Source: Calditrichota bacterium | GTDB lineage: Bacteria > Calditrichota > Calditrichia > RBG-13-44-9 > J042 | DNA: 59,335 bases | Direction: 5' to 3' | Assembly (NCBI GenBank): GCA_013150955.1 | Contig: JAADJD010000018.1 | Location: 1-59,335, forward strand | In this document: one piece after another, positions 53,072 to 58,046 of the stretch | Layout of the letters: every line of letters starts with the position of its first letter | Numbering within the stretch: the stretch's first letter is position 1 | Program-made: the position numbers and the translations under genes | The notes under the pieces: model-generated | Seen by the model: only the letters and a program-made list of their open reading frames with translations | Told to the model about the DNA's origin: nothing | The model's database searches: none

Positions 53072-53365
53072 TCCCGCGGCGATGGTGTTTTTTGGCGGGA
53101 CAAGAAAAGAGGTTGATTTTTATCGCGGGGGATTGTAGTATTGGGTTGGGGATTTGAAAAATGCGTTGAAGGAAATTGGGGTGGTGAGGGCGATTTTTGT
53201 AAGCTCAGGAAAAACAAGAAAATAACTGCAATGTGCTCTACGCAAAACAAAAACAAGAACTTAGGTTCATTTTTTGGGTTTGGGAATGGTTTTGCAGGGC
53301 GAGATTTGGGTTCTTCACGCAAACGCCTCTGGAGCTTGCGGTATTGCGTAAGTTACGGGGGTGCT
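53072..53365 (+). promoter_or_regulatory. Probable CRISPR leader
   Basis: 294 bp with no convincing gene, A-rich in its middle (AACAAGAAAATAACTGC, CAAAACAAAAACAAGAAC). It lies on the side where repeats are intact. The repeat end ATTGAGAC resembles the 8-nt ATTGAAAC crRNA 5' handle, which places transcription left to right and the leader here. No promoter could be pinned down. Confidence 0.6.
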
Positions 53366-54989
53366 GTCTGAAAAGCCCCGTTTTTCAGAGGGGATTGAGA
53401 CCCAAGTGCCGGGTTATCACGAAAAAACATCCGCTCGGGTGTCTGAAAAGCCCCGTTTTTCAGAGGGGATTGAGACCGACAATTGCGTTGACACGGCCGA
53501 CGCCGGTAATCTCAGACGTCTGAAAAGCCCCGTTTTTCAGAGGGGATTGAGACTGATGCACAATCTGTATCCCGCGTTCTCGCAGTTCCCGCGTCTGAAA
53601 AGCCCCGTTATTCAGAGGGGATTGAGACGTACCATTTGCGCCCTTCCTTAGCACCCTTGTTAGGTTGTGTCTGAAAAGCCCCGTTATTCAGAGGGGATTG
53701 AGACACCATGCCGGCCACGAGGCCGGTGGCGAAGGCTTCGGGTAGTCTGAAAAGCCCCGTTATTCAGAGGGGATTGAGACGGCTCTCGTTCTCCATAACG
53801 TAGTGCCACAACGTATCAGTAGTCTGAAAAGCCCCGTTATTCAGAGGGGATTGAGACTTTCGGTGGCCATTTTGATTGTATAACGTAATCTTTAGGTCTG
53901 AAAAGCCCCGTTATTCAGAGGGGATTGAGACCCTCCATTTTTTGGTTCATCATTAAATCCACCATTAATATGTCTGAAAAGCCCCGTTATTCAGAGGGGA
54001 TTGAGACAATACATGACTCATGGCATTCTCCTTTCTGTTAAGTGAAGTCTGAAAAGCCCCGTTATTCAGAGGGGATTGAGACATGCTAATAGTTTCTCCT
54101 CGGAAACGATAAATTTGCTTCCCTGTCTGAAAAGCCCCGTTATTCAGAGGGGATTGAGACAATTCGTCCCAAATATGCCGGATTTCTACTACACGTTCCG
54201 GTCTGAAAAGCCCCGTTATTCAGAGGGGATTGAGACTTTGTGGTTCACGGCTTTTCACAAAGCCGTTCGCTGCCCGTCTGAAAAGCCCCGTTTTTCAGAG
54301 GGGATTGAGACCCTGAAATGCTGCCAAATTCCACAAGGACAGTCCCATCCATGGTCTGAAAAGCCCCGTTTTTCAGAGGGGATTGAGACCAGATCACCTG
54401 GTCTCTTCTTGATGATTTTTCTCAGATATGTCTGAAAAGCCCCGTTTTTCAGAGGGGATTGAGACCTTAGTTCTATGTGCTCGTAATCCTCGTCCCTCGG
54501 ATCCCACCGTCTGAAAAGCCCCGTTTTTCAGAGGGGATTGAGACTCGACGGCACTTTTTACACAGTTATATGGCAAATCTAACCAGTCTGAAAAGCCCCG
54601 TTTTTCAGAGGGGATTGAGACATCCCCGCCAATAGTTCCAAGACAGCATCGGCCGGCGGGGTCTGAAAAGCCCCGTTATTCAGAGGGGATTGAGACTTCA
54701 TTCCCATCCGCTATAAAAGTAACCGATACTTCAAATCGTCTGAAAAGCCCCGTTATTCAGAGGGGATTGAGACTATATTATTAGTGACCACTCTTAGGGG
54801 GAATTATGATAGCCGTCTGAAAAGCCCCGTTATTCAGAGGGGATTGAGACAACAAAATCGATCAAGAAATCCCAGAACTGATCCCAGAAGTCTGAAAAGC
54901 CCCGTTATTCAGAGGGGATTGAGACGGTAAAAGCGTTTAGGAAACACAACAATTCCTTAAGGCTTGTGTCTGAAAAGCCCCGTTATTCA

Positions 54990-55043
54990 TCCCGATAATC
55001 GTGCCGTCCGGGCACGATCGGGATGTCGCCCGTCCACGGGCTC
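54990..55043. repeat. Double-hairpin insert splitting CRISPR repeat 22
   Basis: 54 bp forming TCCCGAT-AA-TCGTGCC-GTCC-GGCACGA-TCGGGA and then GCCCG-TCCA-CGGGC. It interrupts the repeat after 'TTATTCA'. The right half resumes as CAGAGGGATTGAGAC (one G missing), so CA is present at both junctions. Confidence 0.85.
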
Positions 55044-55106
55044 CAGAGGGATTGAGACATTGGTGAATGGACTCTCGGTGAAGGCTGGATTAGGTATCTG
55101 AAAAGC

Positions 55107-55178
55107 TGAGGCCGGGAGGGCCTGTCTGCCGCCAGGCAGGCCGAAGTCCCGCCGAGCGCGGGGATGCGCGGTGGCGGG
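55107..55178. repeat. Second palindromic insert, in the degenerate terminal CRISPR repeat
   Basis: 72 bp of GC-rich palindromic sequence (core GCCTGTCTGCCGCCAGGCA) between 'TCTGAAAAGC' and 'AGCCCCGT'. AGC occurs at both junctions. The repeat is not recognisable beyond CCCCGT. Confidence 0.6.
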
Positions 55179-55336
55179 AGCCCCGTGGCGCGGCGCAATC
55201 ACCATCCCTGGTTTTCGCGCCATACCCCACATCCGGTGGCGCACATCTACCTTCCCTGATTCTTTCGCCATGTCCCGCATTCAACATCCCCCCACCCTGT
55301 TCTTCGCACCATCTCATCCTACCCGGATGAAATTAA

Positions 55337-55501
55337 CCCAGATTAAGCAATAGCCTACGAATGACACAAACCAAAACGAATAAAATAATAAAATCCAATT
55401 GATTAAGTCTGCATGAAAAATGTGTTCCAGGGTTTGTTCGCGATTTTGTAGATATTTTTTGGTTTCATTCGTGTGATTCGCAGTTTGATGCATTGTTTGG
55501 G
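55337..55501 (+). repeat. MITE-like dispersed repeat, copy 19
   Basis: From CCCAGATTAAGCAATAG to GCATTGTTTGGG, flanked by ATTAA and TTTAA (four of five matching). Confidence 0.88.
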
Positions 55502-55634
55502 TTTAACACAAACAAAAACTGTAAAACCCATTGGATTATTTTCGGATGAAAATTCGTTCGGGGTTTATTTACGATTTTGCGGTTATTTTTGGATACATTC
55601 ATGGGATTTGCGGTTTGATGCATTATTTGGGATA
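55502..55634 (+). repeat. MITE-like repeat, 5'-truncated copy
   Basis: Starts within the element (AACACAAACAAAAACTG) and ends GCATTATTTGGG. It is directly joined to copy 19. The remaining gap to 55791 holds no gene. Confidence 0.75.
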
Positions 55635-55791
55635 AACCGGGTTTAACCCCATTACATTCCTCCTTTTGAAAATAACTGGGGAGGAAGGTCCGGTTGTTTA
55701 TAAAAACATGGGGAATAGTTTTTTTATCAATCTCATTTTGCAATCTGTGCAAGGGGTAATGTAATAAGCAATCTTTTCATCCTCTCATATT

Positions 55792-58046
55792 TTACCGCAC
55801 CAGCACCATCTTCCGCATCTGCTCAAATTGGCCAACCTTCAGGCTGTAGAAATAAATACCCGCGGGAACAACCCGACCACTCTTATCCCGGCCATCCCAT
55901 TGCACGGTGTAGCGGCCGGCTGGCTGGTGCCGGTTAACCAGTGTATGTACTTTCTGGCCCAGACTGTTATAAATCACCAGCGTAACATCCCCTGCCCGGG
56001 GCAACGCATAACGAATGGTCGTTGTGGGGTTGAATGGATTGGGGTAATTAGGATGTAAAGCAAATTCTTCCTGTCGATGTTCTCCATCATTCTCAATACC
56101 CGTTGGTCCAGTGAATTTTAGAATATATACCCCATCATAACCGTCTGCCACAAAAACATAATCATTACTGATATAGACGCCTTTGGCCATATCCCCTGTA
56201 TTGAAATATCCCACTTCCTTGGGCCGGGCCGGATCGCTCACATCAATAACGCGAAGACCATTGAGTCTATTTGCCACAAAAGCATAGTCCCCGTTCACAT
56301 GGACGTCAAAAACCTGATCGCTGGTACTAAAATATCCCACATCCTGTGGCCTAACCGGATCACTCACATCGATGATGCGGAGGCCATTCCCACCATCTGC
56401 TACATAAACATAGCTGTCATTAACATAGATACCCACTGCATAACCGCCCGTATCGAAAAATCCCACTTCCTGTGGCCTAACCGGATCACTCACATCGATA
56501 ATACGAAGACCATTCGAACCATCTGCCATTCGAACCATCTGCCACATAAACATAGCTGTTACTAACATGGACATCCATTGCATAACCGCCCGTATCGAAA
56601 AATCCCACTTCCTGTGGCCTAACCGGATCACTCACATCGATAATACGAAGACCATTCGAACCATCTGCCTGCCACATAAACATAGCTGTTACTAACATGG
56701 ACATCCATTGCATAACCGCCCGTATCGAAAAATCCCAATTGCTGCGGTTGAGTTGGGTTGCTCACATCAATAATGCGTAGACCTGAATCTCCAACCGCTA
56801 CAAAGGCATTTTGGCCGCTGACATAAATACCTATAGCTTGATCGCCTGTATCGAATTGTCCCAATTCCTGGGGTCGGGCAGGATTACTCACATCTACAAT
56901 ATAAATACCATCATAACCATCTGCAATGTAAGCATAATGACCTCTAATATAAATATCTATAGCCTGATCGCCTGTATCAAAATAGCCCACTTCTTGTGGC
57001 TGAGCAGACTTACTTACATCGATAATTCGCAGTCCTTCCCATCCGTCCGCAACATATGCATAGTCACCGCTCACATAAACATCCCTGGCATGACCTTTCG
57101 TATCAAAATATCCTACTTCTTTTGGCTGAGTTGGATCACTCACATCAATAATGAGAAGCCCTTCCTCATAATCCGCTACATAGACATAACTATCGTTAAC
57201 GGATAATGCCTGGGCCTGAGATCTTGTGTTATAAGATCCTACTTCATTTGGACTAGCGGGATTACTCACATCAACAATTCGGACACCATTCCAGCTATCC
57301 GCTACATATGCATAATTACCACTAACGTAAACATCCAATGCCCAACCGGTATCATAATAACCCACTTCCTGTGGACTGGTCGGATCGCTCACATCGACGA
57401 TTCGGAGCCCACTTCCTCCAACTGTTACATAGGCATAATCACCAAGAACATATATTCCTCCTGGATAACCTTTAATATAATATCCCACTTCCTTGGGCTC
57501 GCTTGGATCGCTCACATCAAAAATACGTAAACCATTCCAATCGTCCGCCAAATAAGCATAATTTCCGCTAACGTATATGTCCCGAGCCCAACCACCTGTA
57601 ACGAAATTTCCAACCTCCTGAGGATTAGTTAAGTCACTTATATCAATAACACGTAACCCTGCATAGCCGTCCGCAACGTAAGCATAATTGCCACTAACAA
57701 CAACTCCATTAATAATTGATGGCAATAAAACTTTAGCTAATTTAATAGGGCTTCTTGGACTGCTCACATCGACTATTTCAAGGTATCCCCCATTGCCAAA
57801 ATAGGCAATATTTCTATGGACATAAGCTACCTTACAGTAACCATTTGCCCAACGGCCTATCAAAGTTACATTAGAATCTTTACGGATCTCGTTTACCTCG
57901 TAATTCCATCCTTTATTATAAAAACCAATTGACCAGGGATGAATACCATGCAGCTTACTTTCATTTACGTATTCTGTTCCTGTTTGAGCTACAAGACTCA
58001 TTGTTTGAACGATAACGAACCACATAATTAAAAACATCTTTAACAT
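55792..58046 (-). pseudogene. Secreted LVIVD-repeat propeller protein with T9SS-type tail, split by two frameshifts
   Basis: The ATG at 58044-58046 has AGGAGG seven bases upstream, followed by a signal peptide (MLKMFLIMWFVIVQTMSLVAQ). About 15 LVIVD units of ~42 residues follow (LRIIDVSDP..P.EVGYFDT....VYVSG.YAYVADG..G). The C-terminal ~85 residues contain 'HPNYPNPFNPTTTIRYALP' and 'GRVVPAGIYFYSLKVG', a FlgD-like/type IX sorting tail. The frame breaks twice. At about 56669 a 4-bp tandem copy (CTGC) ends the first frame at 56628. At about 56527 a 16-bp tandem copy (CATTCGAACCATCTGC) ends the second. Each adds +1, so three frames are needed. The duplicated LVIVD unit between them is almost identical to its neighbour. 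It is a pseudogene, a phase-variable gene or an assembly artefact. Confidence 0.82.

Follow-up and report, generated by a model that had tools for sequence, protein, structure and literature searches.

What kind of sequence splits the last recognizable repeat of a CRISPR array, and how did it come to lie there? The question is raised by a 59,335-nucleotide stretch of a Calditrichota genome (the window), in which a CRISPR array of 21 intact 36-nt repeats, followed by a 22nd repeat with an insert, could be read directly from the sequence at positions 53366–55058 of the forward strand, the strand of all window coordinates given here. It is preceded by a leader-like sequence (53240–53365) that, on side-by-side reading, is partly conserved upstream of a second array on contig C27 of the same genome. 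The conservation of this sequence upstream of repeat 1 in both arrays bears out the leader-distal position that the preliminary description of the locus had given to the inserts at the array end.

Repeat 22 (54968–55058) consists of a 5' part (54968–54989) and a 3' part (55044–55058), such that the 36-nt repeat GTCTGAAAAGCCCCGTTATTCAGAGGGGATTGAGAC is split into GTCTGAAAAGCCCCGTTATTCA and CAGAGGGATTGAGAC by 54 bp (54990–55043) placed between TTCA and CAGAGGG. CA is found on both sides of the insert, and the GGGG of the repeat is short by one G; the two CA dinucleotides could represent a 2-bp duplication or be part of the first hairpin. The earlier account of a 54-bp double hairpin cutting this repeat, with CA at both junctions, was thus exact. 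Folded as RNA, the insert forms two hairpins (−31.5 kcal/mol, z = −4.2), with none of 200 shuffled versions being as stable, and it is recognized at 25.3 bits by the covariance model R2 described below. Hairpin 1 (54988–55025) is built of an outer stem CATCCCGAT/ATCGGGATG, a 5' bulge, an inner stem and a loop with TCC, while hairpin 2 (55028–55041) has the predicted fold GCCCG-TCCA-CGGGC. The insert is located in the loop of the CCCC/GGGG stem of the predicted repeat RNA, and the RNA of the whole interrupted repeat would therefore be predicted to form a multi-branched structure.

The preliminary description had further proposed that the genome be searched for copies of the insert, seeing in a unique insert an argument against its reading. 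We found that the array on contig C27, which has the same repeat as the window array, features in its tail six repeats with a near-identical 54-bp insert at the same base as in repeat 22, and one further repeat, the 25th counted from the leader, with a diverged 54-bp insert, again at the same base; all of these copies lie in CRISPR repeats. The R2 score of the diverged insert is not significant, and its putative relation to the element rests on its position, its length and its TCATCCCG start. Five of the six near-identical copies are in tandem units of 130–138 bp, the 'spacers' of which are similar and of low complexity. Between the first interrupted C27 repeat and repeat 22 of the window the inserts differ at few positions and the spacers are unrelated. 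The 5' halves of the interrupted repeats display the same A/G and TTATT/TTTTT variants as the intact ones, in combinations that are independent of the insert variants. This uncoupling would fit a history of tandem duplication and recombination between repeats. Neither the sequence searches nor a structure search, which scored a limited number of candidates, recovered a copy outside CRISPR repeats in the source genome; the class-wide R2 run likewise returned no match from this genome, though its array copies do match R2.

Beyond repeat 22, the array ends in a degenerate repeat, represented by the 5' remnant TCTGAAAAGC (55097–55106), and GC-rich palindromic DNA (55107–55181), which had been described as a second insert with AGC at both junctions. 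The remnant, the palindrome of about 75 bp and the AGC before CCCGT were all recovered; the 3' junction proved weak, since no 3' half of the repeat follows and the junction amounts to a match of about five bases. Elsewhere in the genome, this DNA was found again only at the homologous C27 array end (83% identity over 45 bp), where the 5' remnant and a related palindrome are preserved and the CCCGT is lacking. Both arrays finish with a homologous shortened repeat and a GC-rich palindrome, the folding of which is unremarkable for its composition in the window (z = −1.85). Further downstream, between the array end and a gene with a T9SS signal (55792–56631), we also noticed a 52-nt direct repeat (55456–55507 and 55586–55637; 83% identical, 130 bp apart).

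A pattern search with TTCA and the outer stem recovered related hairpins outside CRISPR loci in five relatives (G008, G012, G015, G027 and G032). These share a common plan of about 54–62 bp: an outer stem that hardly varies (CATCCCGA/TCGGGATG), a one-sided bulge, a variable but paired inner stem and, usually, a TCC loop, directly followed by a second hairpin with a variable stem and usually again a TCC loop. We aligned 12 such non-CRISPR hairpins of relatives to build the model R2. Across these 12 dispersed copies the inner stem, on which the search had placed no condition, is paired in 84% of the cells, and six of its seven pairs show changes on both sides; none of 500 shuffles attained the covariation score of the complete structure. 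R2 in turn recognized the CRISPR inserts of the source genome (contigs C18 and C27) and of two relatives (G003 and G013) with 23.6–32.1 bits, one of the source-genome copies scoring 19.7 bits, against 17–18 bits for the best matches away from inserts. An earlier model, R1, constructed from the source-genome copies only, was too narrow and was set aside; its two weak matches on contig C47 look like coding sequence.

Among the scored candidates, R2 matches were obtained in 18 of 40 Calditrichia genomes, mostly metagenome assemblies, with 43 matches in G008 and 23 in G016; the E-values of such purpose-built models are rough. Extragenic copies are thus dispersed in the relatives, while in the source genome, again among scored candidates, the element is seen within CRISPR repeats only. 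In G016 there are many near-identical copies with differing wider surroundings, and the near flanks of the dispersed copies show a 7-base periodicity, which is weaker in G008. At two inspected loci with element pairs in G008, its congener G015 shares the flanking sequence and lacks the elements, which indicates gain or loss between close species; the flanks at these two empty sites have diverged, and no clean target duplication was seen there. No significant match was found in Rfam for the inserts or the dispersed copies tested, an exact insert pattern had no match across 84,980 species genomes, and 60 genomes searched by DNA similarity yielded a match in the source genome alone. The latter two results are attributable to the variation of the stems, as the pattern and structure searches did reach the relatives. 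Together, the copies in multiple genomes, the recognition of the inserts by R2 and the empty sites in the congener point to a short, structure-conserved, dispersed family of elements.

We compared the array ends of related genomes. The core of the CRISPR repeat is present in many genomes of the class Calditrichia, and many of the related array ends also bear palindromic inserts: on manual reading, 11 of the 14 readable ends have palindromic DNA within the last repeats or immediately behind them. Inserts of type A are double hairpins in the repeat loop, at the same base as in the window and with stems different from those of the window. In G013 such an insert splits the last repeat; in G003 one lies in a copy of the repeat that follows closely downstream of one array, and a truncated one lies at another array's end. 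G024 was assigned to this type by architecture alone, its R2 score not being significant. Thus, the placement of the first insert in the hairpin part of the repeat, asserted in the preliminary description for one locus, holds for a multi-copy palindromic element inside repeat loops at array ends, in related genera too. Type B inserts, found in G001 and G018, are triple hairpins between GGGGATT and GAGAC with visibly compensated stem changes, and type C inserts are palindromes in the loop, found in G022 and G023. The type B loci are L124 (1–250) and L109 (1400–1607; same-genus G001) and L050 (G018), with two distant families sharing the GGGGATT^..^GAGAC insert; in G001 the triple hairpin belongs to a tandem unit of CRISPR repeat and insert.

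Internal repeats of the related arrays are mostly intact; at the leader end, a single array type, from G022 and G023, showed interrupted repeats. A further array belonging to the same repeat family, at L136 (G023) and L134 (G022), has short palindromes such as ACGCCAGAGGCGGGCAGG inserted after the 5' handle and ahead of the CCCC stem; in G023 the leader-end repeat is among those interrupted. Both arrays of G017 are free of palindromes at their ends and have AT-rich tandem units instead (147 and 155 bp at L127 and L128), with the 5' half of the repeat replaced. Across the arrays, the interrupted repeats have the 5' half characteristic of their own array.

We consider it probable, at roughly two chances in three, that the 54-bp insert belongs to a double-hairpin family dispersed across Calditrichia, of which a copy was inserted ancestrally into the loop of an array-end repeat and then amplified. 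This reading is favored by the double hairpins that at least two further genera, with stems of their own, have at the identical base of repeats at array ends; the moderate R2 score of the window copy by itself (25.3 bits) speaks against it. An ancestral copy would have landed in a CRISPR repeat loop at the old end of the array. There, the interruption may have survived under relaxed constraint, probably because spacer uptake does not copy leader-distal repeats and the array has no strong need of them. Tandem duplication, and probably also recombination between repeats, would then have multiplied the insert locally. The array-specific 5' halves and the different insert type in the same-genus G001 favor repeated insertion events.

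The preliminary description had instead compared the inserts to REP-type elements or to IS200/IS605-like activity. Such an element, moved by the Y1 transposases of the genome, would account for a palindromic, multi-copy sequence, and Y1-transposase genes are indeed encoded by the source genome (two, RAYT-like) and by most of the relatives tested, many in relatives. The proposed transposase search thus succeeded in finding such genes, but the element is not near them: none of the 33 Y1-transposase loci from the source and related genomes has a copy within up to about 1.5 kb, and the loci that we inspected are flanked by other palindromes of their own. Further, the flanks that we read lack a GT[AG]G tag on the 5' side of the hairpin foot, and in place of an inverted pair of the same palindrome, the REPIN layout, there are two unlike hairpins in tandem. 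By these tests the element family is not RAYT/REP, and movement by the Y1 transposases of the genome is highly improbable. At one of these genes, on contig C35 (locus L018, 1–3300), the RAYT-like gene lies inside its own palindrome arrays (CCCCACGCGCTGCGTGGGG and others), parts of which match the Rfam family Acido-Lenti-1 just below the cut-off.

The end of an array should be its oldest part. A single insertion into a terminal repeat in the distant past, passed on together with the array by vertical descent or through transfer of the CRISPR locus and with stems drifting through compensated changes, would explain the identical insertion point in the source genome, G003 and G013. We regard this as rather unlikely, given the 5' halves typical of each array, the other insert type in G001, the strong stem differences within one family (source genome versus G003) and the dispersed pool, which offers a ready source. 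Somewhat less likely still is a functional cap, that is, a double hairpin kept by selection in the last repeat, for example to set the end of crRNA-precursor transcription or processing, or to hinder recombination at the array end. A shared base in three genera, stems that are kept paired and the frequency of palindromic DNA at the readable array ends are all in keeping with a cap; yet other genera have different palindromes at other repeat positions, no palindromes are found in the two G017 arrays, a cap would call for a single interrupted repeat whereas C27 has seven, and the same family is also dispersed outside CRISPR loci. As for an assembly artefact, the fragmentation of the genome into 66 contigs and the near-identity of the C27 tandem units speak for it, but copies of the insert on two different contigs have unique spacers next to them, and separately assembled genomes have different inserts at the same base, leaving this explanation with hardly any probability.

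Returning to the dispersed family, neither a mobilizing enzyme nor a clean target duplication was found at the places searched, namely the 33 Y1-transposase loci and the two empty sites of G015. As a tentative and, on balance, doubtful extension, these might be transposase-less mobile hairpins recognized by structure, with the loops, the bulge and the outer stem fixed and the inner stems freely replaced, which enter the loops of palindromes, including that of the CRISPR repeat at one exact base; array tails might then act as their reservoir, the only one found in the source genome.

Short dispersed hairpins are already known from several systems. The small dispersed repeats (SDRs) of Nostoc and related cyanobacteria (Elhai et al. 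2008) are reportedly very short dispersed single hairpins of about 21–27 nt, with a common structure kept by compensatory changes and often in heptamer tracts. One of them, SDR5, has its insertion site at a precise position of the palindrome HIP1 (PMC4390886). The Calditrichia element resembles these in its dispersal with a structure kept by compensatory changes (the 12-copy covariation), in the 7-base periodicity of its flanks and, with regard to SDR5, in entering a palindrome at a fixed point, here the CRISPR repeat. It differs in comprising two hairpins with TCC loops over 54–62 bp. Compared by description, it appears to work most like the Nostoc SDRs, a likeness of behavior rather than a claim of membership. 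REP and REPIN elements, which are short extragenic multi-copy palindromes with a GTRG tag, found beside RAYT and with reported compensatory changes (PMC3116915, PMC6006769), are similarly hairpin-forming and numerous, but the tag, the RAYT neighbor and the symmetric layout are all missing here, two unlike hairpins standing in tandem. The CGTC-tagged REPs are likewise dispersed palindromes with no dedicated transposase (PMC3733652), but they consist of a single hairpin with a CGTC end, a tag not seen in the Calditrichia element. The hairpin elements of mitochondria, some of which are double, are comparably compact, potentially mobile and set in non-critical places (PMC2800124); in those of sponges the stems are conserved and the loops vary (PMC2800124), the opposite of what we see here.

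What is added to these precedents is a two-hairpin family within CRISPR repeats. A covarying family of this kind that, in several genera, has entered CRISPR repeats at an identical base was not found in Rfam or the literature searched, nor did we find relevant literature on insertions within CRISPR repeats, and the family is apparently undescribed. Its distribution suggests that palindromic CRISPR repeats can serve as landing sites for other palindromic elements. The element offers a marker for the ageing, duplication and recombination of array tails, and the interrupted repeats are natural variants of the crRNA precursor, with a predicted multi-branched loop, that are suited to testing repeat processing.

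Finally, eight dispersed double hairpins in G027, G005, G039, G016 and G008 (L170, L176, L178, L187, L190/L236, L191, L219 and L224) lie at or just after the stop codon (−7 to +51 nt) of genes for proteins with a T9SS sorting signal (..KMILMK*), three of which were confirmed by Pfam/NCBIfam. The GGA loops are always on the mRNA strand, and these hairpins, as a candidate association, could have a role in the 3'-UTR.
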